Part shown: positions 3,819 to 63,639 of the stretch, piece after piece
Position numbering within the stretch: the stretch's first letter is position 1
How the letters are laid out: each line of letters opens with the position of its first letter
Assembly: GCA_963921795.1 (NCBI GenBank)
Contig: OY997651.1
Location: 55,426,642 to 55,490,641 of the forward strand
Length of the DNA stretch: 64,000 bases
Direction: 5' to 3'
DNA from: Nannobrachium achirus
Taxonomy: Eukaryota > Chordata > Actinopteri > Myctophiformes > Myctophidae
Notes under the pieces: model-generated
What the model was told of the DNA's origin: nothing
The model's database searches: none
Seen by the model: the letters and a program-made list of their open reading frames with translations, nothing else
Translations under genes and position numbers: made by a program

Positions 3819-4183
3819 ACCAGAGGGGTAGGCAACCTTAGGCATACTGGTGCAAAATAATTGTGTATCTACTATCCTTGCATGTTTGGTTGAATCTTGA
3901 GAGCTGGCTTGACCTTTCACTGGGGCTGGTGGAGTGATAACCTGGTGCGAGTTGCTGTGAGCTTGTAGATGGGCTATTTTCACAGAGGTACAGGGGGAAA
4001 AAGAGCAGCTCAAGTACAAGGCAAACAGTCACCACGTATCCATCAATAAGTCTATAATGTGTGATATCGATTACCGGTCCATTGCTTGGCTGAATCCCGA
4101 GAGCTGTATTGGCACAGCGGTGGGCATTTGACTGGGGCTGGCAGTGAGAAGAGGGCAGGAACATGGACTATTTTCACAGAGGT

Positions 4184-4224
<41 letters not shown>

Positions 4225-4800
4225 TTGCTTGGCTGAATCCCGAGAGCTGTCTTGGCCGAGGTGTGGGGGGGAGCAGATTAATGAACAGAACAAACAGTCA
4301 AGTTTACCAGGTATGCAGCAATACTAAAGGCAATGTGTGCATCCATTACCTGTGCATTGCATGGCTGAATCCTGCCAGTTGGCTTAGCACAGTGATGGGC
4401 CTTTGTGCAAGTCTGTGTGAGCTTGTAGATTGGCTATATTCAAAGACTGTTTGGTGTAGAGGGGAACAAAATATCAGATCAAGCACAGAGCAACAGTCAA
4501 GTTTACCAAGTATCCAGCAAAAATGCAATCATGTGCAGGGCAGCCACAAAGCATTTTGGTGCCTGACTCACAACTGGCTGTTGGGTGAAACCCACAATGC
4601 AATGCCTTGTTGTTTTCAAGAGTGGATGGCGTGGGGGAAGGCAGTATTAAGTCTAGTAAAAAAGGAAAAGTTTTGCCAAGATGAGCACGGCAAAGAAGGC
4701 AAAAAACTATCACTTCCATCCAGAGTGGGAAGAAGATTATGTTTTCACCATGTCACATTCTAAATGTGAAAAACCCTGTCACATGCTGCCCTGTCACTGC
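3819..4800 (+). mobile_element. hAT element 5' part with start of BED-type transposase, copy 1
   Basis: Starts with CAGAGGGGTAGGCAACC, a Charlie-like hAT terminal repeat. The leader contains several diverged copies of CATTGCTTGGCTGAATCCCG (about 3,888, 4,080, 4,223, 4,360), a poly-G tract, and two single arms of the hairpin cassette. From 4,681 a frame begins MSTAKKAKNYHFHPEWEEDY, which looks like the N-terminus of a BED-finger hAT transposase (GTF2IRD2/ZBED-like). It loses similarity by about 4,790. A second copy of 4,300-4,760 lies at 6,930-7,400. Confidence 0.6.
4184..4222 (+). repeat. Poly-G tract
   Basis: Almost uninterrupted run of G, about 39 bases. The 225-residue open frame running through it (about 4,086-4,763) owes its length to this glycine run and is not a gene. 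Confidence 0.95.
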
Positions 4801-4987: not shown

Positions 4988-5300
4988 CTGGGGTGTTGCA
5001 CCAAATCCTGGGCCCTGGTTACAAGGATTCACTGCGGGCCCCCCATGAATGTTCTTCATAGGGGGAGGAAGGGGTTTAACCCGTTTAGACTGGGAACGCA
5101 TTATTCTGTGTTATTTTGTGCTTTAACTATTGAAAATAGCAGATATACAAGCTCACAGCGCGGCACAGAGAGTGCCACGTGGTGAGCTTGTATATCGGCT
5201 ATTTTTCAATAGCTAAAGTATAAAATAATTAAGGTCCCTCCACCTTGGGCCCGCCTCCCACTTCCCCCCCCCCCCCCCCCCCCCCCTTGTGACGCCCCTG
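4988..5300. mobile_element. hAT MITE with 8-bp target duplication
   Basis: Flanked by CTCCCACT on both sides (4,980-4,987 and 5,301-5,308). The left end is CTGGGGTGTTGCACC and the right end GACGCCCCTG, approximating the terminal repeat CAGGGGCGTC. The interior holds a full hairpin cassette (5,127-5,212) and a poly-C tract near 5,267-5,286. It interrupts the minus-strand hAT transposase relic. Confidence 0.8.
5127..5212. repeat. Hairpin cassette (two-armed)
   Basis: The left arm GAAAATAGCAGATATACAAG pairs with the right arm CTTGTATATCGGCTATTTTTC. The loop is GC-rich (GCGCGGCACAGAGAGTGCCACG). The arm change GATAT for GATCT is matched on the other side (ATATC for AGATC), so the stem stays paired. 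Confidence 0.85.
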
Positions 5301-6900: not shown

Positions 6901-7680
6901 GGGTGTGAAGGTGGGGGGAGAGCAGATTAATGCATGAAACTACAGAACAAACAGTCAAGTTTACCAGGTATGCAGCAATAATAAATTGTGCATCCTGCAT
7001 TGCATGGCTGAATCATGCCAGTTGGCTTAGCACAGTGATGGGTCTTTGTGCGAGTCTGTGTGAGCTTGTAGATCGGCTATTTTCAAAGAGTGTTTGGTGT
7101 AGAGGGGAACAAAATAGAACAAGATCATGTACAGAGCAACAGCCAAGTTTACCAAGTATCCAGAGAAAATGCAATTATGTGCAGGGCAGCCACAAAGCAT
7201 TTTGGTGCCTGACTCACAACTGGCTGTTGGGTGAAACCCACAATGCAATGCCTTGTTGTTTTCAAGAGTGGATGGTGCGGGGGAAGGCAGTATTAAGTCT
7301 AGTAAAAAAGGAAAAGTTTTACCAAAGATGAGCACGGTAAAGAAGGCAAAAACCTTCCATCCAGAGTGGGAAGAAGATTATCTTTTCACCATGTCGCATT
7401 CTACAGTAAATGTGTTTGCCTTGTTTGTAAAGCGGCTGTGTTTCTAAAGATGGGAAACTTGGAGAGACATTTTACTTCACGTCATAAAGAGTACAACTAC
7501 AGTGAATACCTGCCCAACAGTGAATTGACAGCTTATAGATCTGCTATTTTTTTTTCATGTCAAGGACCCCCAAAATTACATGTATTTGGCCGCGGGGTTT
7601 CGCCATCTCAAAATACGTTGTTCCGGGGACCCCCCAGAAGCAAATATTTGAGTTACAAATGTTCGCTTTAAAAATTATAG
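6900..7680 (+). mobile_element. hAT element 5' part with BED finger, copy 2
   Basis: 6,930-7,400 repeats 4,300-4,760. From 7,329 the frame starts MSTVKKAKTFHPEWEEDYLF. After a frameshift near 7,400 it continues CVCLVCKAAVFLKMGNLERH and FTSRHKEYNYSEYLPNSEL. This is a BED/C2CH finger (C-x2-C, then H-x4-H) as found at the N-terminus of GTF2IRD2/ZBED-type hAT transposases. The rest of the transposase is missing. From about 7,555 a different hAT-like sequence (GGACCCCCAAAATTACATG) takes over; it recurs at 10,335 and 44,485. Confidence 0.65.
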
Positions 7681-8984: not shown

Positions 8985-9430
8985 ATTCAGGGACCACTGG
9001 GAAAAGCGGGACAACTCCCGAACGGCCGGTTCATTCCCGGCCGGTCCAGGCCGGCCATTAGGAAAACATTAAAAATAAAATGTCGGCCTTCGTTCCATTT
9101 TGGGGGCTGGGCGGCCAACAAAGTAAATCGTCACTGTCGGGCAGAAACCTTGTATCTCCAAGTTTCAAATGTATACATTGCAAAGCAAAGCCCTGCTTCA
9201 TCAAACAAGGCCGTTGCACAAAAGTAGTGAAAACAGCAGAACTACAAGCACACAACGCGTGTGCTTGTAGATCGGCTGTTTTCACTAGTTTAACATTTTT
9301 TAAATGATAAATACAAAACAAACGGTTTTGGCCAAACAAGGTTTTCACCCGACGACAAAATATAAATCATGTACAGTAATTGGCCCACTGGCTTGTCACT
9401 TGTCATGATCTGAAATGGCAAATCTTTGAG
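8985..9430. repeat. Repeat with GGCCGG block, related inverted at 44,020-44,170
   Basis: CACTGGGAAAAGCGGGACAA and CCCGGCCGGTCCAGGCCGGC (8,996-9,056), and also TTGGCCCACTGGCTTGTC (9,379), reappear in reverse complement at about 44,020-44,170. A full hairpin cassette is embedded at 9,226-9,287. The class is uncertain; the CACTG start allows EnSpm/CACTA as one option. Confidence 0.45.
9226..9287. repeat. Hairpin cassette (two-armed)
   Basis: The left arm TAGTGAAAACAGC pairs with the right arm GCTGTTTTCACTA, and CTACAAGCACACAACGCG pairs with GTGTGCTTGTAG. The loop is short. The outer arms differ from other copies (AAACAGC instead of AAATAGC) but remain complementary to each other. Confidence 0.85.
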
Positions 9431-10240: not shown

Positions 10241-10540
10241 GCACCAAATCCTGGGCCCTGGGTCAAAGGATTCACTGCGGTTTCGGTTTTCTGTTTCTAA
10301 GTCAGTGGTGCTCAAACTTTTTCACATAAAGGACACCCAAAATTATATGTATTTGGCCACGGAGCCTCCATCTCAAAATATTTCATTCCAGGGACCCCCA
10401 GAAGCAAAATGTTATGTTCGCTTAAAAAATACATATATTCAAAGATTTGCACACATTTTCACGACTTTTCAAAAATAGCAGATCTACAAGCTCGCATTGC
10501 GGCACTCGGTGCCGCGCTGTGCGCTTGTATATCTGCCTTG
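10231..10540. mobile_element. hAT remnants (two ends) with hairpin cassette
   Basis: The CAGGGGTGTCGCACC end at about 10,231 is cut after about 60 bp. A second hAT end, CAGTGGTGCTCAAACTTTTT, starts near 10,304 and runs through GGACACCCAAAATTATATG. A full hairpin cassette follows at 10,475-10,537. Right ends are not visible. Confidence 0.5.
10475..10537. repeat. Hairpin cassette (two-armed)
   Basis: AATAGCAGATCTACAAGCTC against GCGCTTGTATATCTGC, with loop GCGGCACTCGGTGCCGCG, itself a perfect palindrome. Confidence 0.75.
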
Positions 10541-10849
10541 GTCCCTAGTAACTCAGTCCCCCATCTCCATCTACATCTCCAGCAGAGTCCCCTTTTCTCA
10601 TCGCCCAAGCGGCACTGTTCCCTGGTTGCGCCAGTGTAAGTAATGCACACAAACACATCGTAACACAGGAGTGTCTGTAACATGTTCCCCTGCAACACAA
10701 CTTAAAGATGGGAAAACGCATTGTACAACTAATACCGCTAGAATATACCGGTATTCTATCCACTGTCACCTTTGCAGCCTCCACAGTGGCTTCCTCATCC
10801 CCAACAGCCTGTACTGACACCTCAACAGCCAGCAAAGTACTCCAGTCAA

Positions 10850-18232: not shown

Positions 18233-18522
18233 CCACCTGATGTGTCTTCACCACATAAAGTAATGCCAAAGGATGCATGTTCCCAGAGTGAAGAGAGACC
18301 GCCAAAGCGCCTCATACCTCTTGAGAACTTTTGCACTGTCTGCCCTGGAAAGATTCCTCTCTCAGATCCAATGTTGATAACCCACAAAGCCAACATAGTG
18401 ACATATAGTGGAATATTAGAGTATGTTTAGTTCATGAATACATTATTGATCCTTTAACTGGTTCTTTTGCTAAATGCAATGTAGCAATTTTTATTCACTC
18501 TACTTTTATGATCTCTCCCTCT

Positions 18523-18962: not shown

Positions 18963-19027
18963 ATAACCTATCTACAAGCTTGCAGCGCATTGATTTGCTG
19001 TGAGCTTGTGCTTAGATCGGTTATTTT
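18963..19027. repeat. Hairpin cassette (degraded), unit 1
   Basis: ATAACCTATCTACAAGCTTG against GTGAGCTTGTGCTTAGATCG and GTTAT, with a small insertion in the right arm. The identical copy in unit 2 is at about 21,925-21,989, so the decay predates the duplication. Confidence 0.65.
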
Positions 19028-21870: not shown

Positions 21871-22187
21871 CCACTTTAAGCCAGCCTCCATATTTGTTGG
21901 GGGACATAACGGACGTTGGCTAGAGATAACCTATCTACAAGCTTGCAGCGCATTGATTTGCTGTGAGCTTGTGCTTAGATCGGTTATTTTTGGCAGAGAC
22001 ATTTGGTATAATGGGGGGTGGGGTCCAAGTACTGTAAGTACCGGTAACTGTACCTTTGTACTAAGCGTTCTGCACACTGCAGGTGCAAAAGACATTCCAG
22101 GAACCAGACTGGTTCCACTCAGAGACAGCTGAGGATGTAAAGGATGTTAAGGCAGAAATGTGTAGCTCCTTGAAAGACCCTGACATC

Positions 22188-26791: not shown

Positions 26792-27784
26792 CTTTGCTGC
26801 GTCTCGCTGACCGTTTTCAAGAGGAAAGAAGAGCTTAAAGTAAGCACAACTTTGCTAGTGTTCCGTGTTGATAGCCTGTTTCTATGGTTTATAGCCGATC
26901 TGCAAACTCCGCGACGAATTGTGACAGTGATGCACGCAGCAAGAGAGGCGGCACGTCTATAATGTGAGCTTGTAGATTCAGTGTTTTCGACGGAGCTTGC
27001 GCGTGTGTGAGAGTGATAAGAGAGACAGAGAGACCCCGACGCTGCGCTGCTGCTCACTGGACCTCCAGCGTGCAGCCGCGAGGGCCAGTCAGATATGTAT
27101 CCGCCCTGCAACGCTCATTTCTCGGCCACAAACGTTTTCATGCCACAGACCTCCAATATTTACATGCGACTTCGGCACTAGCCGTTAAGAAAGTATGGAT
27201 GAACTCCCCCCGAATCTAAATAATTTCGGGTTGGGGAGCCCTCCCGAACCGAAATTAGTTAGGCTCCTTATTAGAGTGTATAACGACCCTAACTCGGACG
27301 CAGAACGGGAAGACTTGTCCGTTCATGCAGTGAGCTTGAGTAACAACTGAACTAGGAAAGCTGTCTCATTATCAAAACTAGCATATAGCACACAGGTGCA
27401 GCCAATGCCAGTGTGACATTGGGAGCTTGTCACTGTTACTACATGTCATCTTTTCAACACCCGACTCTAACCCTCACCCTAACCCTAACCTCCGTGGAGT
27501 GAGTCGCTAACCCTCCGGTCGAAATGATGGTCGTTCGAAAGAGATCGATTTTACCGTGACATTAACATGTACATTCTTGCGAAATATAGAGCCAGACTTT
27601 ACAACGCTTCTACTTGGACGACATGTTGACTGCGCTCTAACAAAACAAGGCAGCGTGTGGGATGTCAGCGCGCATATGCAGGCATCGATAACGGAATCGT
27701 TAAGGACTTTGGCTTACGATTCCAAGGAATCGATCCACAGGGAACCGGTTCTCAACGAGAACCGCTTCTCGATACCCATCCCTA
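25713..27784. mobile_element. hAT element, 2.07 kb, with nested PIF MITE
   Basis: Terminal repeats are TAGGGATGGGTAT and ATACCCATCCCTA. The flanks are CAGATGTG and CAGATGAG, a target duplication with one mismatch. Subterminal sequences near both ends carry GATTCC/GGAATCG motifs (25,765-25,800 and 27,685-27,735). No transposase is recognised. It splits a DUF6589-like exon, whose frame continues on both sides. CCCTAACCCTAACC at 27,477-27,490 is telomere-like. Confidence 0.85.
26367..27289. mobile_element. PIF/Harbinger-type MITE nested in the hAT element
   Basis: Ends GGGTCGATTCACACTCTAAT and ATTAGAGTGTATAACGACCC, followed inward by AAGGAGCCTAACTAATTTCG and its inverse. It is flanked by TAA on both sides, the 3-bp duplication typical of PIF/Harbinger. 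Contains an (AC)n tract at about 26,725-26,790 and one arm of the hairpin cassette (26,961-26,985). A fragment of the same end is at 43,206. Confidence 0.85.
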
Positions 27785-28130
27785 CAGATGAGCAGCGTTG
27801 ACCCGCTCCTGGTTTGCAACCATAAGTAACCAATGGTCGATTCTTTGATGCTCCATTGATACAATGTGAGGTGTAACAGCACGGTTCAGGTTGTCGATCG
27901 TCACTTGGAATGGAGCAAAACGTTGGATACCCTGGGAAACAAATGAGGCAAAATTTTAGCCAAATGTTATTTTTAAATTTGTACAATGAACTGATTTATG
28001 TCTACAGTACTAACTACATCAGGAGTATACTAGAACAAAAAACTTAACCCATACTGCATTATGAAAATGGGTAGAATAGAAGCCCTATAGACATTACATT
28101 AAGTCCACATTTAACAGCCATTTCCTTATA

Positions 28131-30801: not shown

Positions 30802-31754
30802 TAGGCCTGGGGCGGTATCGACATTTTGTTACCGCGATTACCGTCTTCCCATTTACCGCCGGTACTGCGGTAATTACCGCACCCCCGTATCTATTAATTA
30901 AGGTTCGGCGATAAGCCAAAATATTGCAATCATCTTCCCTAAAGTCGCCTCTCCACAGCCTGACTGCCCGAGTTATACTTCTCCGTACAGCACAGCGGGT
31001 ATGGCTTTGAAAGGAGCAGATCTACAAGCTCACAACAAATCGCATCCGCGACGCGTTCTGAGCTTTTAGATCTGCACTGTCGGGTTACCATAGTAACGTA
31101 GAATAGCTACTTGGGCTATTCAGACACAAACAGCTGTGTGAACAAACCAGAAGAGGACGGGTATTCAGATCGTGTACAGTGATTCTGTAAACTCACGTCA
31201 CGTCTCAACTCTCAAATCGCAGTGATTGAGTGCTGCTATATACAGGTTTTAGTTACAAGACTTGACAGAAAAGGTTATAAAATCGCCGACGCGCCGCCGG
31301 ACGGAGCACAACGTGCGACGCGGTGGAAAAAGTAAAATAGTTTCATTTTCGGTTTTAGTCCACGCGGCCCGCGCTCCGCCAGTAATCCGTATGAATAAAA
31401 AAAGATATGCCACAACACAAGGTATGTATTAACATCCTTGTGTCGTGTGGATTACAGAGAAAGTTTACGCTGCTCTGTACTCGCGGCTGCTGTGCTGCTC
31501 TGTGTAGGTCTGACTGTCTGTGTCTCTGAGAGTGAAAGTGACGTATGTGGCTTCCAACATGTGGTACACGGCCCAGAGCAGAGCGGCATGGAGTGCATGC
31601 GGTCCTCGCTTCTCCCCTGTTTTAAAACTCGCTTGTTTTCCAATAAAAAATATACTTTTTTTTGTCTTTTTTTACCGCGGTAAGCACACTGACACTGCGG
31701 TAGACCTCGGTTTACCGCGGTACGGCGGTACGGCGGTTACCGTGTCCAACCCTA
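30802..31754. mobile_element. hAT element with perfect 8-bp target duplication
   Basis: Flanked by GTGCTAGC (30,794-30,801 and 31,755-31,762). Ends are TAGGCCTGGGGCGGTATCG and GGTTACCGTGTCCAACCCTA. Subterminal regions are dense in ACCGCGGTA-type motifs on both sides. A hairpin cassette lies at 31,015-31,075. No transposase; the 81-residue open frame at 31,438-31,683 has no recognisable domain. Confidence 0.9.
31015..31075. repeat. Hairpin cassette (two-armed)
   Basis: GGAGCAGATCTACAAGCTCA against TGAGCTTTTAGATCTGC, loop containing CGCATCCGCGACGCG. Confidence 0.8.
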
Positions 31755-32388: not shown

Positions 32389-32451
32389 AAATAGATGATC
32401 TACAACAAGCTCACAGCAACACATTGTGAGCATGTAGATCAGCTATTTTTG
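32389..32451. repeat. Hairpin cassette (two-armed)
   Basis: GATCTACAACAAGCTCACAG against TGTGAGCATGTAGATCAGC. The flank CACCAAATCTCTTTGCC (about 32,371) resembles flanks of the copies at 45,632 and 51,335, so it probably derives from the same hAT family. Confidence 0.75.
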
Positions 32452-35475: not shown

Positions 35476-38175
35476 CAGAGGCGTCAATTGGGTATGGCAG
35501 GGGTATGCAGCTGCCATACCCTGGGTCCAGGGGGGGAAATAAAATTACTTTTGAAAATAAATCCATGAATGTCTCTTTGTCTATCTGTGCTCGTTAATAT
35601 GTTGTTAAATTACAGTAAAATAACTACAAATGCAAAAATTAATGTCGCTTCAACAAGGTATTATAATTATATTCTCCACACTTGTATTTTCCCCATCTTG
35701 ACAAAATTGTATATTCCCACCCACGTTCTGCACGCAGCGCAGGTCAGGTGCACAGGTGCAAAGCATTGTTGTTAATTGTGGCGCTTCTTTTCGAGATGCT
35801 GATACAGTTTGAGCTAAAATGAAAAGAAAGCAGACCTCCCTGTTAAATTTTTTCTGCAAAAAGACTGCCACAGCTGCAGCAGCAGCCCCAGAAGCAGATG
35901 ATGGAGATAGTTACAGTGACTTGCTGTTGATTAAAGAGCCGGGAAGCAACACCACCACCAGCGAAAACAATGCGGCTAATGCTAGCGGTGACGGTGACGC
36001 TCCTGACATGGAGCTGGAGGCCGTGGATTCTCATGACCCCGAGCCCGGACCAAGCAACAGCAGCGGCTGCTGCGGAAGTAATGCAGCCGAGACAGCGGAG
36101 CCGGTGCTGCTGGATATAAGTGAGTCGAAAGCGGACCAGCTCAGCCAGCCTAATTTGTCCACGTTCCCCACAACGAGTGGAAGACGATTCAATGTCTCTG
36201 TGTATATGAAACATGACTGGGTGGAATATTCAGTAAAACAAGATGCAATATTCTGTTTTGCATGCCGTCACTTTGGAGGGGCCTCCATCCAGCCAGGGGA
36301 GAGGGTAGGGCAGCGTGTATTCATAGACACAGGATATAAAGGATGGAGGAATATGTCACCGAATCTGAAAGACCACCAAGACAGCCAGAGACACAGAAAT
36401 GCTGCACTGGCGTGGGGAGAAGTGATCCCCACGTGATCAGCGGAGGTCAGGATTCCATCGCAAGTAAAATAGATTCAAATCGGACAACGGAGGTCCGGCA
36501 GAACAGAGCACACGTTAGTACCCTGATAAAAGTCGCATCCTTTCTGGGGAGACAGGGACTCCCTTTCCGAGGGCATCTCGAACAAGATGACTCAGAAAAC
36601 AAGGGACATTTCCTAGAACTGTTGGATGTATTTAAAGATGATAAGGATGTGATGAGCAAAGACGAACGCAGGTATGGGCATTATTCCTCCCCAGAGGCTC
36701 AGAACGATATGGTCAGAGTTATAGGAGAAAAAAATCAAGAACACAATAATCAGCGAAATAAAGGAAGCTGAGTACTTTGCTATTTTAGTTGATGAAACTA
36801 AAGATCTATCTAAGAAGGAGCAGTTGGCAATCTTGGTCCGTTATGTCAACAATGGGATGATAAAGGAACGAGCGATAGAGACATACCACATGAAGGATCT
36901 CACAGCTGAATCCCTGGCCCAGAGAATAGTACTTGAAACATCAAGTTTAGATCTCCAGTTGTGTGTTGCACAATGCTACGACGGAGCAAGTGTTATGCGG
37001 GGCCATGTACGTGGAGTGCAGACTATAATATGCGATAGGGTGCCTCATGCTGCTTATATCCACTGCCATGCTCATAGATTGAATCTTGTGCTTGTGAACT
37101 CAATAAGCGACATAGCAGAGGTGTCAGAGTTTTTTAGTGTTGTTAAAACACTATATACTTTAATTGCAAATAGCAATACCAGGCACACACTTTTCATTGA
37201 GGCTCAAACAAGGCTGGGCTCAAAACAAGTACTGCACTTGGAACGCACATGTCAAACTCGATGGCTGTACTGGTATAGAGCTGTGCAGAAAATCATGTTA
37301 TGCTACGAGGCAATAGCATGCAGATGGATCCACTGAGGCAACTGGGCTTAGGTCAAATATGGAGACATTCTCTTTTGTTTTGCGTCTTCATGCCCTAGAA
37401 CGAATCTTGAGTCTCACCTATGGATTGTCTGAGCAGCTTCAGGCAAAAAACCTTGCTATCACAATGGCTTCCAATCTCGTAAGGAGTAGGCTACTAAAGG
37501 CGACCTGCAACGTCTGAGATCAGATAAAGAGTGGCACGCTACAGTGAAGAATGCCAAGGCATTCGCCAAAAAACTCAACCTTGAATGTGACACCCAGCCT
37601 CCCACACAAGCGCGACCTGAAAGAACCCGGAGTGTATCGAGAGCTTTAATGGATTTTATTGTTGGATCCCCCACTGGCCAGAGAGAAACAACACTCACAG
37701 CAGGTGACCAAGAAAAGCAGACTGTTTTGATTGTATGTCACCCCATTTCATGGATGTGATCAGAATGGAACAGTTCGCACAACTGTACAATCAACTGATT
37801 GACATGAGCCTTCTCAAGTCCCAGTGTCAAACAGCAAAATCTTTCCTTGAATTGGACATGAAAGGAAATGAAGAGGAGGGTAGTATTATGCTGATACTCG
37901 AAAAACAGCAAAACGCCTCTCGCATTCTCACAGGTGATTAAACTATTCAAAATTGCTGCAACAATACCAGTTTCAATGGCATCAAACGAGAGATTCTTCT
38001 CCGTTTTAAAGAGAGTTAAAACTTACTTGAGGACCACCATGGGGGATGATGCTAATCGTGCTAATCGCTGCTAATCGCTGTGGAAGCTGCAGCTGTGAAA
38101 AAGCAGGACACTGATGAACTCGTTGACACCTTTGCCTGTCTGAGGCCTCGCCGTTATCCATTAATGGATTGATCT
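35476..38175 (+). mobile_element. hAT element with ZMYM1-like transposase
   Basis: Left end CAGAGGCGTCAATTGGGTAT, shared with the MITE at 22,188. The transposase relic starts 343 bp downstream. No matching right end is visible up to 39 kb, so the 3' boundary given is the end of coding similarity. Confidence 0.7.
35819..38173 (+). pseudogene. hAT transposase, ZMYM1-like with TTF-type zinc finger
   Basis: Starts MKRKQTSLLNFFCKK, a PCNA-box-like N-terminus common in this group, then an acidic low-complexity stretch. The TTF-type zinc finger is WVEYSVKQDAIFCFACRHFG through WRNMSPNLKDHQDSQRH (about 36,210-36,410). Core pieces: ADYFAI-type EAEYFAILVDETKDLSKKEQ (D of LVDET, frame change near 36,730), YDGASVMRGHVRGVQ and HCHAHRLNLVLVNSISDIAE, TCQTRWLYWYRAVQKI. 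The C-terminal dimerisation part is IPVSMASNERFFSVLKRVKT with YLRTTMGDD (about 37,965-38,050). At least four frameshifts or stops are present. Length and domain order match a nearly complete element, so this is a young or well-preserved relic. Confidence 0.85.
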
Positions 38176-38179
38176 CCAT

Positions 38180-39240
38180 GGATTAAATCAATACAAGTTC
38201 ATCTTAAGGTAAGACAAAAGACATCACTTGCCCGAATTGCCTTTCTTAAACTTTTGCTTCCTTATTGTGTGTCTGTCTGTGTGTGTGTGCCAAAATGTGT
38301 ACTACAGTATATGCCAGGGATTTCCAAACTTATTTGGCTCAGGTTACATATAAATATATTTTCCCTCCGAGGCACCCCTATATTATATTCATCATTTTGT
38401 AACAGTATGTAACTATTTTTAATCGAAATTGTTAAATGTTTTTTTATTAATTATTATAAGATGACAACAACATTATTCTCCTTGAGATTATATTGCGAGG
38501 ATAACATTGAGATAATAGCCATTTTCGTTAGAAATAAATGTGTACTCCAAGTTTAAAATGATACAAAATATAAATTTTTTAAAAAAAGTAATTGTTCAAA
38601 TAAATTCAAAATATTTTCAAATTATCTCGGCACACTTTGTAAACCCCATATGCTCACTTTTAATTCAGTTTTGGGTGCGTGCTTATTTATTTATTTGTTT
38701 ATTTTTGGTTATTACTCTACAGTTAAATACTGTACAACTTTCTCTATTCCTTACCCCACCTCCCCTGCCCTGTAGAGACCCACAGAACTGACAGAAGAGA
38801 GCAAGACACGCACATAGTCGACTCGGAGAGCGACTGTTTCAAAAGAACATAGTACACAGGATACCATTTATTATTTTGAAAGACAGACGTGTACAATCTT
38901 GTGAGTCTGTAATAAAAAAGACTAATTTGAAAGTATGCCCTATGTTGTTATTTACCACCAGTATGTCTGGAGCTATAGTGAAAAATATTGGTGGACACAA
39001 GGCCCTAGTTGACAAGAGGTCTTTACTAGGCCCTGTGCATTGTTCCATCTACATAAAATATTACTAAACCCTGTGCATTATTCCATCGACATAAAATATG
39101 ACTAAGCTTCGACTAAACTTAGTTGAACATTACTGATCTACAAAGCTTAAAACACGTTGCACTGTGACCTTGTAGATCTGTGAGTTTTGCTCTCTGTTTG
39201 ACTCGGGAATAGGGAAGCCTTTGTTCATGAGGGTTATGGG
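38180..39240. other. Spacer with one hAT-like end
   Basis: CAGGGATTTCCAAACTTATT at about 38,316 looks like a hAT terminal repeat (CAGGGGTTCCCAAACTT type) but no partner was found. A diverged two-armed hairpin cassette lies at 39,131-39,186. No gene. Confidence 0.35.
39131..39186. repeat. Hairpin cassette (degraded)
   Basis: CTGATCTACAAAGCTTAAAA and ACCTTGTAGATCTG with ACACGTTGCACTGTG between. Pairing remains in the outer 10-12 bp. Confidence 0.5.
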
Positions 39241-41051: not shown

Positions 41052-41470
41052 TAGGGCTGTCACAATTATTACATAATCGTCTAATCGTGATTTTTTTTAA
41101 ATAATCGTGATTATTTTTCATAATCGTCATAATCTTTCCATGTTGAAAAATGTTCATATATTTAAAAAAAAGTCAAAAAACAGTGGAAATAGCAGATCTA
41201 CAAGCTCACAACGCGTCGCATCGCGACGCGTTGTGAGCTTGTAGATCGGCTATTTCCACTATCAAAGTAATTCTTTAAGTAGTAAGTTGTCAAATATGTC
41301 AGTAATTTCTTTGTATATTTAGGTTATGTGTAATAGCATGTACAACTTCAAAGCCTAAAAGCCAAACAGAAATGTAATTATCAACGACAAAAACACAATT
41401 AAATCGTTAATCGCCAATTATTTGAGTGACAATTAATCGTCATGTAAAATGTCATATCGTGACAGCCCTA
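41052..41470. mobile_element. hAT MITE with perfect 8-bp target duplication
   Basis: Flanked by CTCCACAT (41,044-41,051 and 41,471-41,478). Ends are TAGGGCTGTCACAATTATTA and ATATCGTGACAGCCCTA. Subterminal regions carry repeated AATCGT/ACGATT motifs. The centre holds the most perfect hairpin cassette in the window. Inserted in exon 1 of the P2X7-like remnant. Confidence 0.92.
41182..41260. repeat. Hairpin cassette, best copy
   Basis: Near-perfect palindrome of about 78 bp. AGTGGAAATAGC pairs with GCTATTTCCACT. GATCTACAAGCTCACAACGC pairs with GCGTTGTGAGCTTGTAGATC. The centre is GTCGCATCGCGAC. The only stem mismatch is next to GATC (A versus G, giving GCAGATC / GATCGGC). Confidence 0.95.
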
Positions 41471-44204: not shown

Positions 44205-44697
44205 CTGGGGGTGTTGCACCAAATTCTGGGCCCTGGGTACAAGGATTCACTTCGGGCCCCCCATGAATGTTCTTCATAGGGGTAGGGGGTAACCGTTTAA
44301 CCCATTTAGATTGGGAACACATTATTACACATTATTTTGTGCTTTAACTATATCAGATACAGTATACAAGCTCACAGCGCTGCATGCGAGCTTGTAGATC
44401 TGCTATTCTTGAAAAATCGTGAACATTTGTCCAAGTCTTTGAATATTTCAAATTCTTATACGGTTTATAACTTTTTCATGTGAAGGACCCCCAAAATTAT
44501 ATGTATTTGGCCACGGACCCCCATCTCAAAATATTTACCCCCCCCCCCCCCCCCCCCCCCAAGCACATTTTTTGTTACAAATGTTCGCTTAAAAAATACA
44601 TATATTCAAAGATTTCCACACATTTTCACGACTTTTCAAAAATAGAAGATCTACAAGCTTCAATAGTATAAAATAATGACCCCCCCCCCCCCTTCTG
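44205..44697. mobile_element. hAT composite (GGGGTGTTGCACC...GATGCCCCTG) with nested hAT piece
   Basis: The left end GGGGTGTTGCACCAAATTCT matches the MITE at 4,988. The right end is CTTCTGATGCCCCTG. Inside are a hairpin cassette (44,352-44,407), a second hAT-like body (GGACCCCCAAAATTATATG), poly-C tracts at 44,538-44,561 and 44,680-44,692, and a single cassette arm (44,639-44,660). The element is bracketed by a direct repeat AGCAGCAGGAGATGCTCAGC (about 44,181 and 44,711), which is longer than a hAT duplication. Confidence 0.6.
44352..44407. repeat. Hairpin cassette (two-armed, shortened)
   Basis: TCAGATACAGTATACAAGCTC against GAGCTTGTAGATCTGC. The left arm is degraded near GATACAGTAT. Confidence 0.65.
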
Positions 44698-45050: not shown

Positions 45051-45631
45051 CAATACTTTTGAGTGTTTACTGAGCAGAATTGTTCAGTGTAATTAAAATA
45101 AATAACAGCCTATAGCTTATGAAAATAATCCTGAACACATGGGGGTTGCAGGTCGAAAAACTGGGAGGTCTGGTTCCCATACTTGGATGTGTGCCTTCCT
45201 CAGGAGAGCATGCACAGTACTGCTTCCCTACGCTACTCATTCCAATTTTCATGTCCTTTTTATAATCGATGAACTTAAAATAGTCAGAGATGTCCCCGAA
45301 CATCCACTCCACCGCCACTCTGACTTCACTCATGAGTGAGATTCACGATGCGGAAAGGGCCTTGGAGATTGGTGCGCAGAGGGTAGGCCGCGTCCCCGTA
45401 AATGCACATCCTCTGACCTGCTGAATGGAACTCAAAGGTTACAGTTAGCCTATTGTCCTTTACAGAAATGTCCTATATCACATTATAGCAGGGGTCTTCA
45501 ACAGGGGGTCCGGGACCCCAAGGGGGTCCTCAGAGTTACTACATGGGGCTGCCAAATCTTTGTGTGATAGGAACATTATTTTAAATTAACAACTTGAACC
45601 CTCGCATCCCTATTCTGAGGAGAACTTTGTA

Positions 45632-45705
45632 GCCAAAAAGAGCAGATCTACAGTATAAGCTCTCAACTGCGAGGCGTTGAGAGCTTGTAGATCGGCTATT
45701 TTGGG
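45632..45705. repeat. Hairpin cassette (two-armed)
   Basis: GCCAAAAAGAGCAGATCTAC then AAGCTCTCAAC, against GTTGAGAGCTTGTAGATCGG and CTATTTTGGGC. A 4-base insertion (AGTAT) lies in the left arm. AAGCTCTCAAC/GTTGAGAGCTT shows paired changes relative to AAGCTCACAAC/GTTGTGAGCTT. Confidence 0.85.
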
Positions 45706-45846
45706 CAAATAGGTTTGGTGTAGAGGTAAAAAAAAAAAAGAGTACAATGTGAAAGGTCAAATTTACTAAGTATTGATGATTTAAGTGGTTAAATATCACA
45801 TTAAAAACACATCAACATGACTGACAGTGCTGTCAAACAACTCTAT

Positions 45847-46096
45847 AGTAGGTTGGGAGTGGCTTATTGTCGGTATCAGCCGGTAACACGCGGGAGTCTG
45901 TCCCCGTTACAATGCGCTAGACCCCTGGGAGATGGACTGCTGAGGTGGAGCGCCACACCTACCATCAGCTCCCAGTACTTGCCGCACGACTTGCCAAGCC
46001 GTGCTACTCATACGCTGAGTTGGCGGTGCCCGGAATCGAACCCATGACCTTGCGGTACAAAGGCGAGAGCTCTACCGACTGAGCTACTTCGGGCAC
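45847..46096 (-). mobile_element. tRNA-derived SINE nested in the hAT element
   Basis: Flanked by an 11-bp duplication AACAACTCTAT (45,836-45,846 and 46,097-46,107). On the minus strand it begins GTGCCCGAAGTAGCTCAGTC (A box TAGCTCAGTCGG) and has the B box GGTTCGATTCC about 45 bp later, a tRNA-like head. The remaining 180 bp has no poly-A. The family is unknown to me. Confidence 0.85.
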
Positions 46097-46490
46097 AACA
46101 ACTCTATGAATCTATGTAAATCTGCAACACAGTTTCATACAACATGTAGAGGGGGTCCCTGCTTCTCTCTCTCTCTCAGCTAAGGGGTCCTTGGCCTGAA
46201 AACGTTGAAGAACCCTGCATTATAGTGACCTATTCAGTGCCTAGGTTACATAATACCTATTTGTGAATTGTAGCTCTGTGACTGTGTATGAGATTCAATA
46301 ATGAATTGTTTAGGCTTGTGTTTGTTTCTTACTAGGGGAGACTGCATGCTGCTCCAGGACAGGTAGCCAGCCGGAATCTGCCAGCATCCCGGCATCAATG
46401 TTTCCTTCCCTCTGAAAAGATGCAAAGGAATAACGTTAGCAAAGTATGGTGATGACACTAATGAACATTTGCTCCAATATGTCCCTATTG

Positions 46491-49934: not shown

Positions 49935-50454
49935 CTGCTCCACCCTTCCAGGGATGTCCATCAGCTCCACATGAAGCTCCACAGCCAGCACTCCTCACTA
50001 AGGAGAATCCTTTAGAAGTCATTATGAGAGGGATGGACTCCACCACCACCTGGCCCCCACCATGCCATAAAGTGACCAGAAGAGTTATTAAGAGACCACT
50101 TACACATGCTGTTAAAGCAAAAAACAAGCCAGGCTGGAGAAATCAGACAATTCCACAGCAAGTCTGCTCTTAGAGCCACTTCTGTCAAGTAAGTGTTGTG
50201 AGCCTGTAGATGGGCTTATTTAAGTTTCTTACAGGGCTTAAATGGTTAATCAGACAAATTATGTTTTGATTTATATTTTTGGTTAATTGAACAGCCCTAT
50301 TGCAGGACCCTTATTCTGCAAATCACAATAGGAAAAAAAGAGAAAAGTTTATGTTTGAGCTTTTTTGGTGGCTCTTATATGTGGCTCTTGTTTTTTCTCC
50401 TCATGCACTGAGCTCAGTTTGGGGCTCTCCCAGTGACTAACAAGAGATCAGGGG
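49935..50454. other. Spacer; first part may continue the Cys/His-rich fragment
   Basis: 49,935-50,170 is open in the plus strand (GCPSAPHEAPQPALLTKENP) without a recognised domain. A single right arm of the hairpin cassette is at 50,196-50,225. The remainder is unremarkable. Confidence 0.3.
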
Positions 50455-51180: not shown

Positions 51181-51183
51181 GCA

Positions 51184-51400
51184 GGGGTCTTCAACGTTTT
51201 GAGGCCAAGGACCCCTTAACTGAGAGGGAGATAATGCAGGGACCCCCACTACATATACTGTATCAAATTGTGTTGCAAAATCTTGGACACTTAATAAATT
51301 TGACCTTTTCACTCTACACCAAACCTATTTGCCAACAATAGCAGCTCTACAAGCTCTCAACGCGTCGCAGCGCGAGGCGTTGAGATTTTGTAGATTTTGT
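51184..51400 (+). mobile_element. hAT fragment, same family as 45,489-46,217, inverted
   Basis: CAGGGGTCTTCAACGTTTTG, then GGCCAAGGACCCCTTAACTG and CACTCTACACCAAACCTATTTG, is the reverse complement of the right half of the element at 45,489, down to a hairpin cassette at 51,335-51,398. It is truncated after the hairpin. Confidence 0.75.
51335..51398. repeat. Hairpin cassette (two-armed)
   Basis: AATAGCAGCTCTACAAGCTC with TCAACGCG, against CGCGAGGCGTTGAGATTTTG and TAGATT. The right arm has lost AGCTTG. Confidence 0.7.
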
Positions 51401-51594
51401 TGAATGCAACATTTTATGTTGAAAGAATGTGTCCTCCGTCTAGAAATCCACGTCATAGGCCGCACACCAAAAATAGCTGATCTACAAGAGTGTCAGGGAT
51501 TGAACTCTGTTGTAGGACAAGACAGGCCAAACTGGACAAACACGTTTTGGGTGTTTCAGGGGAGCGGCTTGACCATGTTTAAGGCTTTGGGTTA

Positions 51595-55618: not shown

Positions 55619-56029
55619 CAATGGTTCTCAACCTGTGGGTTGGGACCCCCAGGGGGGTCCCCAAATTATTTTGGGGGGTCCCCAGATGATTAACTTAATG
55701 TGAAACATTGTTTTCTCGCTCAACAGTCCTCAAGTTAATAAGGGTATCTGCATGTTTCTAAAGTGAGAATTTAAGGAGAAAAATAATAAATAAAAAGACA
55801 AATTAAACATTGTTCAAATTGTCAATTAGAGGCAGAAATTATGAAAATAGCTGATCTACATGCTCACAATGCCTCGCGTTGTGAGCATGTAGATCTGCTA
55901 TTTTCACAATAGAACCGTGTTATACAAAATGAAATGCCTCAACTCTTAGTGCTCGTCAGGGTGGGGGGGTCCCCAGTTAAAATATGATTATTATGGGGGT
56001 CACGGCCTGAAAAAGGTTGAGAACCACTG
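55619..56029. mobile_element. hAT MITE inside the Penelope-like element
   Basis: Ends CAATGGTTCTCAACCTGTGG and AAAAGGTTGAGAACCACTG, a classic hAT terminal repeat. Flanks CTGAATAG and CACTATAG agree at five of eight positions. GGGTTGGGACCCCCAGGGGG at the left and TGGGGGTCACGGCC at the right form the subterminal region. A hairpin cassette is at 55,841-55,908. The coding frame on either side (GGAIV, then IQNRVDY) shows the insertion point. Confidence 0.9.
55841..55908. repeat. Hairpin cassette (two-armed)
   Basis: ATGAAAATAGCTGATCTACA pairs with TGTAGATCTGCTATTTTCAC. GCTCACAATGC pairs with GCGTTGTGAGC. ACATGCTC/GAGCATGT differs from the usual ACAAGCTC/GAGCTTGT in both arms together. Confidence 0.9.
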
Positions 56030-58270: not shown

Positions 58271-58713
58271 TGTCTTCTTAAGATAAGTCAGCATTTGTTG
58301 TTTGTCCTTTCCGTATGGTGCAATGTTGTAGCTACCCCAATGGTCTGACAAAAGTTCCTCTTGGGAGCTATCATGTAGCCTACACATTCCACCACATTCC
58401 ATGGCTTATGTTAATATGGGGGGAACAGGTTTTGAGCCAAATAGTCTACTTAGAACATGAACACAATAGGACTAGGTTAAATGAAAAGCAAAAACAAACA
58501 ATTCATTCAATGTTTATTTCACTTAATTGTTTTAGAATTCACAGACACGCAACACTAGTTTAAATGATAGCCATGAGGAGCTGATATTTATAAATAATAA
58601 TAAATATAATAGAAGTAGAATCAGAATATAATATGCATCTTTGTAGGACTCATATCCACGAGTTTCCTACGCCCCATAGTGCATTGCGCAAACGTTTGCA
58701 TCGATCTTCCGGC
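58271..58713. other. Spacer, nothing recognised
   Basis: Possible 5' part of the KIAA1586-like element, then AT-rich sequence. Confidence 0.3.
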
Positions 58714-58777
58714 GCCGATTTACAAGCTCTCAACGGGTTGCATCTGCGACGCGACGTGAGCTTGTATGTCTGCTGTT
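58714..58777. repeat. Hairpin cassette (two-armed)
   Basis: CCGATTTACAAGCTCTCAAC and GGGTTGCATCTGCGACGCGA, against CGTGAGCTTGTATGTCTGC. Flanked by TTCCGGCG and CCCGGAAG, themselves roughly complementary, so the stem may extend outward. Confidence 0.75.
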
Positions 58778-61894: not shown

Positions 61895-63639
61895 TAGCCC
61901 CGTTTACATGCACGCATCTAATCGTATTAAAAACAAGATTTTAGATAAACCCGATCTAATTCTGCATGTATACACCTAAATAAACCCGATCAAAACCAAC
62001 ACGATTTAAATTCTGATCGGATGCAGAGGGGTGGTCTAGACTTTTTTACGACCCGATCAAAAGGAAAATCCTTCCATGTAAACACCTAACCCGATTAGAA
62101 TGTGACATGTTCTTTCAGCGCAGGCTTCCTGGCCATTTATTGTGGCACTTTTTGTGATGTTTCACCACATCTATTTAGTTTATAAACGCATTTTTTAATC
62201 AATCTATAAATGTGCAGACTATCTGTGTAGCCTGCCTACGTTAGTGTGCGTGTTTGCGTGCGCTCACGCGAGTCCCAACTAAGACTCCTGTCTCAATTGA
62301 GAAGAACCGTAGGCTAGAGATCTTCACAGGTCCAAAAAATGGTCCCGAAAACTAAATGGACCGTCAAATTTTGACCGATTCCGACCTGTTATGAAACAAT
62401 AATCAAATTACAAAACCAAACCTGAGTGGCCCCGTAACGGTCTCGTCCGATTCCGTCCCGTTCCGACGTTCATTCTTTTTTTACAGACCGAAACCCGTGA
62501 CATGTTGTCCCGAGATCCTTTTATTTCCAAGGTTCCGAGAGACCCGACCATTTAATCATTATTAAAACCCTCTTTTATGTAACTCACTGCAGCCGTGCAG
62601 CGTGCTGTTAACTGATTGACAGGCAGAAGAAGGCTGCCAAGGAATCTATAATATTAAGATCGAAACAAAAGTCAGGGATAAAGGAATACTTATAGGCTAC
62701 TTTCTAACTACAGAGGTAAGTCATTTTCGGTTTGTTTGACATGTTTAACTTGTACGCGGTCGCGGGTGCCTTCTCATCAAAAAATAGCCGATCTACAAGC
62801 TCACAACGCGTCTCAAATCCTGGCAGCAGGCTACGCATCACGTTAAACTGATCCTAGACCAGCATTATCATCTCACTTACACAGCCATTCATTCATCTCG
62901 CGGCCTCACGGCTAACAGACCTGATCCTAGGTCAGCCTAAACACAGCACACACGAAACAGAACTCCAGTAGTTCGGTGAGAGAAAGAGAAAGATATTCTA
63001 GCGCGACTGGACGCTACGTCCTCGTTCATCTATCCTCCTGTGCGTCTTTGCCCAGGTCAGATTGATCTGGCCACTAACTAATTGTCGTCTTGCGATCATA
63101 AATAGCCTAAGAAACCACCAGCAAAACATCCTATATTCTTCATCAGATAAATAATATTTAAAGGGGCCTGGGGTAAGTGGATATAGCTAAGAGAGTCAAT
63201 TTTAAAAGTATTATAGACTTTTTGTTTATTATCGTGAATGCACTTGTCAATGAAGCCATATGTTCTATGGGCCGTCGCCCGTCGGGAGCAAATATGGATT
63301 GTGACGTGATGATGATGATGATGATTATAATGATAATATAGGCCTAATACATACAGAACAACGCACATCCCCAATAATCTAATTAAAAGAGCATTGCAGC
63401 TTATTTTTTCACTTTGGTGGGGCTGTGTATTTGCTTAGGCTCCATTATTATTACTATTATTATTAATGGATACAGGGAAATGCGATCTATTTAATCATTT
63501 GCGTCACAACACGATTTAAAAGTGGGCACATGTAAACACCAGATCGGATTGATCTCACCCCATGTATACACTTGATCCAATCCTTCAATCGGGTTTATTT
63601 AGATCAGATTGGAATGAGGCTGTCATGTATACACAGCTA
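61895..63639. mobile_element. TIR-like insertion inside the minisatellite
   Basis: Left TAGCCCCGTTTACATGCACG and right GGCTGTCATGTATACACAGCTA are imperfect inverses. Both subterminal regions carry GGGTTTAT and GATC(T/A)AAT-type motifs (AAACCCGATCTAATTC versus AATCGGGTTTATTTAGATC). The interior includes a separate GGTCCCGA-rich piece at 62,330-62,520 and one hairpin arm (62,783-62,816). The minisatellite ends at 61,890 and restarts at 63,641, showing the insertion point. Confidence 0.6.

Follow-up and report, generated by a model that had tools for sequence, protein, structure and literature searches.

A non-autonomous, hAT-like transposon occupies positions 41,052-41,470 of the window, by which is meant the whole stretch of 64 kb that was analysed (C14:55,426,642-55,490,641). 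Within it, at 41,182-41,260, lies a hairpin whose 16-bp core, GATCTACAAGCTCACA / TGTGAGCTTGTAGATC, is the palindrome named in the initial annotation of this DNA and the subject of the present analysis. All fourteen two-arm sites of that annotation are present, although several have decayed arms: both arms of the site at 18,963, and of its duplicate at 21,925, are affected, with 3 and 4 mismatches; at 32,389 and at 51,335 a single arm has 4; and at 39,131 and 45,632 it is the left arm that has insertions or more changes. The nine single arms were also found, but the one at 51,469 is truncated, with about ten core letters. The paired arm changes at 5,127, 9,226, 45,632 and 55,841 are as originally written. 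Host families are named by flank: F1 (AAAACAGC, GCACACA), F2 (CATGCTCACA), F3 (inner stem GCGCGGCAC), F4, F5, F6, F8 (the host of the 41,182 hairpin) and others. The features of the window are as follows.

41052..41470, host of the F8 hairpin, non-autonomous and hAT-like; ends TAGGGCTGTCAC...GTGACAGCCCTA, exact 8-bp duplication CTCCACAT
41182..41260, F8 hairpin, the best preserved in the window; arms of 38 bp that pair except for one A/G mismatch, loop of 3 nt
5133..5205, F3 hairpin; GATAT/ATATC in both arms, similar host flank on each side
9221..9291, F1 hairpin with its centre deleted; AAACAGC/GCTGTTT, GCACACA
10471..10543, F3 hairpin; right outer stem changed
18963..19018 (ends approximate), decayed hairpin
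21925..21981 (ends approximate), duplicate of the 18,963 hairpin
31015..31076, older hairpin; a single host end, TAGGCCTGGGGCGG, recognised at 30,802
32389..32446, hairpin with F5-like flanks; one arm decayed
39131..39182, decayed hairpin
44352..44406, F3 hairpin
45489..46217, hAT-like host of the 45,632 hairpin; CAGGGGTCTTCAA ends, exact 8-bp duplication CATTATAG
45632..45700, hairpin with the pair CTCTCAAC/GTTGAGAG
51335..51400, F5-like hairpin with one decayed arm; host end CAGGGGTCTTCAAC at 51,182
55838..55910, F2 hairpin, ACATGCTC/GAGCATGT; between CAATGGTTCTCAACC ends at 55,619 and 56,029
58714..58776, F6 hairpin; TATCCACAAGTTTCC-like ends on either side, at 58,653 (5 of 20 letters mismatched) and 58,835
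3956..3971, minus strand, single arm
4416..4431, minus strand, single arm
7059..7074, minus strand, single arm
7526..7541, minus strand, single arm, 3 mismatches
26963..26978, minus strand, single arm
44648..44663, plus strand, single arm, 3 mismatches, near the F3 hairpin at 44,352
50197..50212, minus strand, single arm
62790..62805, plus strand, single arm

Open frames for a hAT-like transposase lie at 35813-37336 of the window, with a match to DUF4371, which we take to be hAT-related, in 36,725-37,336 (E 1.5e-12). The core, at up to 3 mismatches, is absent between 32,440 and 39,163, the region that holds these frames.

Structure and abundance of the hairpin

A full copy is a near-perfect hairpin with a 9-bp inner stem, the 16-bp core, a 9-bp outer stem, AAAATAGC(A/C), and a 3-nt loop. 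The unit shared between hosts is about 71 nt, made up of 34-bp arms and the loop, with a typical arm reading AAAATAGC(A/C)GATCTACAAGCTCACAACGC(G/C)TCGC; of the 46 core pairs found at first, 28 had a spacing of 21 nt between the cores. Folding of the 41,182-41,260 copy gives a single stem with 37 pairs and the one A/G mismatch, at -46.7 kcal/mol as DNA (z -15.9) and at a predicted -68 kcal/mol as RNA.

The recurring palindrome is real, and the phenomenon is far larger than the window. Thirty core matches with up to 3 mismatches lie in the 64 kb, where 0.65 were expected and the largest number in 100 shuffles was 3. Across the 1.66-Gb assembly (1.6585 Gb, 564 contigs) there are 548,047 core matches with at most one mismatch, 274,643 on the forward and 273,404 on the reverse strand, against 8 (4 + 4) for the reversed-pattern control, or about one core arm in every 3 kb on average. 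Intact hairpins were counted with a strict 35-nt pattern, which covers the inner hairpin and leaves the loop and several stem letters free; it occurs at 28,106 sites with a control of 0, and an exact F3 53-mer that is outside the reach of this pattern occurs at 18,445. The 50 listed sites of the 35-nt pattern, which lie at the beginning of C1, differ at a stem pair that the pattern leaves free: 26 read GCACACA/TGTGTGC, 23 read GCTCACA/TGTGAGC, and the remaining one is unmatched. In the loop of these sites the middle base varies freely from copy to copy; most stem letters are fixed by the pattern, so that they offer no contrast with the stem.

The hairpin also dominates the strong short palindromes of a 264-kb sample, composed of the window and twenty 10-kb pieces from hand-chosen places on 19 other contigs (C1 twice): in 34 of 41 the final 13 core letters are present with up to 3 mismatches, one of the 34, at L023:1309, looking like a different palindrome. 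Palindromes that do not have the stem of this hairpin, with arms of 21-33 bp and loops of 0-5 nt, lie at L012:632-689, L027:8451-8513, L015:4383-4426 and L023:1309-1378, and are perhaps fresh fold-back copies.

Host elements and the limits of the shared unit

The proposal that the cassette recurs in hosts with unrelated ends and flanks is borne out. In the window the elements at 41,052-41,470 and 45,489-46,217 are complete and differ in their ends, and the end at 30,802 is recognised on one side only. Outside it, inverted ends with an exact 8-bp duplication are found at L013:7612-8180, L021:1941-2500, L027:3392-3833 and L028:1863-2396; these hosts and the two complete ones of the window are hAT-like. 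For most remaining cassettes the automatic duplication test gave no pairs or doubtful pairs only. F6 carries TATCCACAAGTTTCC-like ends. F1 is 259 bp when full, with ends ATATCGTCG...CGACGATAT, its copies mostly terminating as ATA-TCGTCG...CGACGA-TAT (with T or A variants), and no 8-bp flank duplication was seen when the listed copies were searched by eye. In duplication and ends, therefore, F1 is not hAT-like. The further suggestion that the cassette targets hAT DNA is thus not supported: its presence in many hosts, including F1, means that it is not a hAT speciality.

The number of host families can be given only roughly by flank similarity, since the 39 groups into which the 102 core loci of the 264 kb fell, 28 of them single, both over- and under-count. 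The largest group (41 loci) merges F1-F3 by chaining, and some ungrouped single loci belong to known families; the locus at L027:6349 is F1-like, and the host at 41,195 has relatives at L109 and L112.

Several host copies have an arrangement of their own. The F3 host in L028:1863-2396 and L021:1941-2500 resembles an inverted dimer with one hairpin place in each half; the former has two hairpins within one element, and in the latter the place is filled in one half and empty in the other. In the F3 copies at L170 and at 5133-5205 of the window, the palindrome is lengthened by host flank that is similar to the left and to the right of the hairpin, and this doubling could be due to recombination between two halves or to fold-back copying. 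At most about 200 bp separate an F1 copy at L010:4143 from what looks, by eye, like a coding exon of an ELAV-type RNA-binding protein.

The limits of the shared unit are sharp. When 13 hand-chosen hosts were aligned outward from the loop, identity between families was 0.70 at arm positions 1-9, 0.85 at 10-25 and 0.67 at 26-34, and then 0.32 at 35-41, 0.31 at 42-60 and 0.29 at 61-99, the background being 0.30-0.34. This fall to background at position 35 places the end of the shared unit near position 34, for a total of about 71 nt.

Just beyond this limit, the two arms of a single copy resemble one another. At positions 35-41, in 12 of the 13 hand-chosen hosts (one with a 20-nt gap was dropped), the arms of the same copy match in 43 of 84 cells, against 25.0 +/- 4.6 with arms exchanged between hosts, and 43 was reached in none of 5000 arm rearrangements. 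F5, L024 and perhaps L019, among these 12 hosts, look related to each other, a relatedness that could raise only the control. At positions 42-55 of the same hosts no matching beyond chance was found (46/168, expected 45.4). The inverted copy of local flank that marks template switching is thus present at positions 35-41 in these 12 hosts, and a stem that is extended by letters specific to each host supports the view that one arm was copied from the other. The clearest mechanistic hint in the data is this mirroring, on one side of the cassette, of a few bases belonging to the host itself.

Pairing, deletion and empty sites

Between families, arm changes come as complementary pairs, as the initial annotation had held. 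The table of stem pairs was built from 34 of the 38 hairpins with a 21-nt gap, four being left out for small indels. Over 45 stem pairs in these 34 ungapped copies, standard pairs fill 81.5% of cells, against 74.2% when shuffled and 31-43% when the arms are slid past one another; changes on both sides were found at 28 of the 45 pairs, in 154 cells against 84.7 shuffled. Related rows are counted many times, so what can be read from the table is pairing between families, not how many events there were.

Support for continuing arm correction within families is mixed. F1 has 32 single-arm changes, 3 complementary doubles and no non-complementary double, where 0.3-0.8 doubles were expected, and two of the three are transversions outside CpG; as 20 of the 44 F1 copies (32 of them full) were picked for an intact inner stem, this set is biased against inner changes. 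The 15 F2 copies have 41 single changes and 1 double (0.8-2.7 expected), and no double was seen in the 6 full copies among 22 of F4 (0.33 expected). The stem of F3 has a standing mismatch, and 5 of 13 sampled copies have changed on one side, restoring the pair every time; no doubles beyond this were found in the 13.

Genome-wide, 18,445 exact F3 sites keep the mismatch and 703 restore the pair by a one-arm change, compared with 52 exact sites that have a G-to-T change elsewhere in the same arm. With flanks typed by eye, one type accounts for 12 of 20 restored and 3 of 20 unrestored copies (permutation p 0.042), and the restored state is also found in at least three other flank types. The excess of restored pairs is therefore partly one subfamily, a matter of history and not of correction. 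The double change at the control site was found at no site, where independent changes would give about 0.15 (assuming that the other arm's uncounted single change is just as frequent) and 2-4 if correction proceeded at 3.8%, the rate seen at the F3 mismatch. Strong continuing correction in F3 finds no support in this absence of doubles, the restored pair itself being partly a subfamily trait. Palindrome correction, one of the explanations originally offered, is thus favoured by the host-specific stem extension and by the F1 doubles but not by F2, F4 or the double-change test in F3.

Copies without the hairpin were sought with joined-flank queries, which select empty copies and so show their existence and not their frequency. 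The F1 search gave 596 candidates, of which 40 were scored and 16 that span the junction were fetched. Nearly all of the 16 keep remnants of the stem, one (L032) being almost clean; they are mostly unlike each other, five having a nearly identical remnant. For F4 there were 103 candidates, 40 scored, and the 6 long junction-spanning copies fetched are all partial deletions. The stem pieces make these F1 and F4 copies look like deletions, and clean insertion finds no support in these two families, as nearly all fetched 'empty' copies bear remnants. The F3 search yielded 592 candidates, and all 40 scored cross the junction, a proportion that says nothing on frequency given the selective query; 5 were fetched, with a junction common to all. 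F3 hairpins lie between direct repeats of ATTTTTCAA (or its complement), exact over 9 bp in 4 copies and shorter in others, and the hairpin-less copies carry the repeat once. This single repeat fits either insertion with duplication or exact deletion between the repeats. No constant direct repeat surrounds the hairpin in the other families; a recurring 8-9-bp repeat is found in F3 only.

Internal rearrangements of the hairpin were also seen. Two F2 copies on L017 have collapsed to a single GATC, and central deletions of the hairpin were found in F1 and F4. Arms are repeated in tandem at L029, L030, L031, L103 and L115, and together with the central deletions these suggest slips of replication at the hairpin. 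At L029:164-715 the core is the unit of a tandem array of 45 bp x 12.4 copies, and a shorter array of similar units lies at L030.

Proposed spread of the hairpin between transposons

What is observed is one sharp-ended module in many hosts, at least one of them not hAT-like, at huge copy number, whose arms stay paired though they differ between families and whose loss proceeds by deletion around the centre. The account that we tentatively favour, and that is quite possibly correct, is of a hairpin module of about 71 nt that is handed from one non-autonomous transposon to another, probably by template switching; its hosts raise its copy number, and deletions remove it. The hosts, in transposing, would multiply the module. 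Its passage from host to host would be linked to replication: during DNA synthesis a nascent strand would copy the hairpin from another element and then fold back on itself. Before turning back, the folded strand would extend into the host sequence upstream on that same strand, by between a few and about ten bases, so that the outermost bases of the new stem would mirror the host that received it. Copying of this kind would also re-match the arms once one of them had changed. It would account for the sharp ends and the host mirror bases, for the paired differences, and for target duplications being usually absent. Passages of one published report describe template switching as able to create, maintain and repair hairpins (PMC8794818). 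Against fold-back copying count the clean empty site and flanking direct repeat of F3, which look like ordinary insertion. A bolder form of this account, possible though doubtful, is that the hairpin is a selfish DNA structure with neither gene nor end sequence, spread by fold-back at stalled replication, which leaves a mirror of each host in its stem and has been carried by hAT and other transposons to hundreds of thousands of places.

The F3 evidence is what a tiny self-mobile hairpin element, moved by some unknown enzyme and inserting into other transposons, would be expected to leave: direct repeats of ATTTTTCAA around the hairpin, and one repeat where the hairpin is lacking. The sharp ends at position 34 and the many hosts suit it equally. 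This idea was put forward in the initial annotation, and its F3 part is compatible with the data; the other families, however, have no constant direct repeat, nearly all of the 16 F1 and 6 F4 near-empty copies keep stem pieces and are partial deletions, and exact deletion is likewise favoured where a 9-bp repeat encloses a palindrome, which together make such an element unlikely. Slightly better placed, yet still rather doubtful, is a putative functional module in which selection would maintain the pairing, acting perhaps as a replication, transposition or insulator signal or as a structured small RNA that aids the spread of its host. The pairing kept across families, the very stable predicted fold and the great number of hairpin-bearing hosts (18,445 exact 53-mers and 28,106 sites of the 35-nt pattern) would all agree with such a role, against which stand the many copies with a broken hairpin or none and the result for Rfam, in which no family matched the window at gathering scores.

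Least probable is that the hairpin has long been an internal part of a single transposon lineage, in which flanks and ends later diverged. Several hosts are hAT-like, and outer-stem letters like TAGTGAAAATAGC are common to F1, F2 and F8, as descent from one lineage would have it. This improbable reading must however accommodate flank identity of 0.29-0.31, that is background, beside a core at 0.85, as well as F1, with its different ends and no 8-bp duplication seen. For the same reasons, background-identity flanks next to a conserved core and an F1 that is not hAT-like, a relic of a single hAT lineage was rejected as the main reading.

The hairpin was also sought elsewhere. The exact 20-mer of core plus ACGC has no match in a collection of viral contigs, and two exact cores 15-30 bases apart have none in a collection of prokaryotic genome contigs. 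Among the papers whose text was searched, none contained either 16-nt core string and three contained a 12-nt part, and the core is not mentioned in the titles or abstract openings of the papers that literature searches returned.

MITEs and foldback transposons are short, non-coding, high-copy elements with inverted repeats, and the hosts of the hairpin are of that kind. The inverted repeats of such elements are, however, their own ends, whereas the present hairpin is internal and common to families with different ends. The closest precedent found is Angel, an internal inverted repeat contained in Tol2, a hAT element of a fish (medaka) (PMC8151067); the likeness lies in the arrangement, both being internal repeats able to form a hairpin. 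Unlike Angel in Tol2, the present 71-nt unit recurs in many families, not all of them hAT-like. Angel is also longer than this unit. In template-switch hairpins, or quasi-palindrome correction, one arm is copied from the other, which yields paired changes and longer perfect stems, according to parts of two reports (PMC8794818, PMC8604942). As far as those parts go, such cases concern single genes or loci, whereas here the module is dispersed and very abundant, and template switching is proposed to help it enter new transposons. Bacterial REP palindromes are also short, dispersed and of high copy number, as portions of one paper describe them (PMC3733652), but they are prokaryotic, and the present hairpin lies inside eukaryotic transposons.

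The hairpin is thus a sub-element common to transposon families with unrelated ends, one that family-by-family repeat annotation could hide. At about one core arm per 3 kb, it is abundant enough for palindrome instability, arm correction and movement from one transposon to another to be counted within one genome. Should it aid the spread of its hosts, the hairpin would be a portable amplification signal; if it does not, it would be a parasite of parasites.
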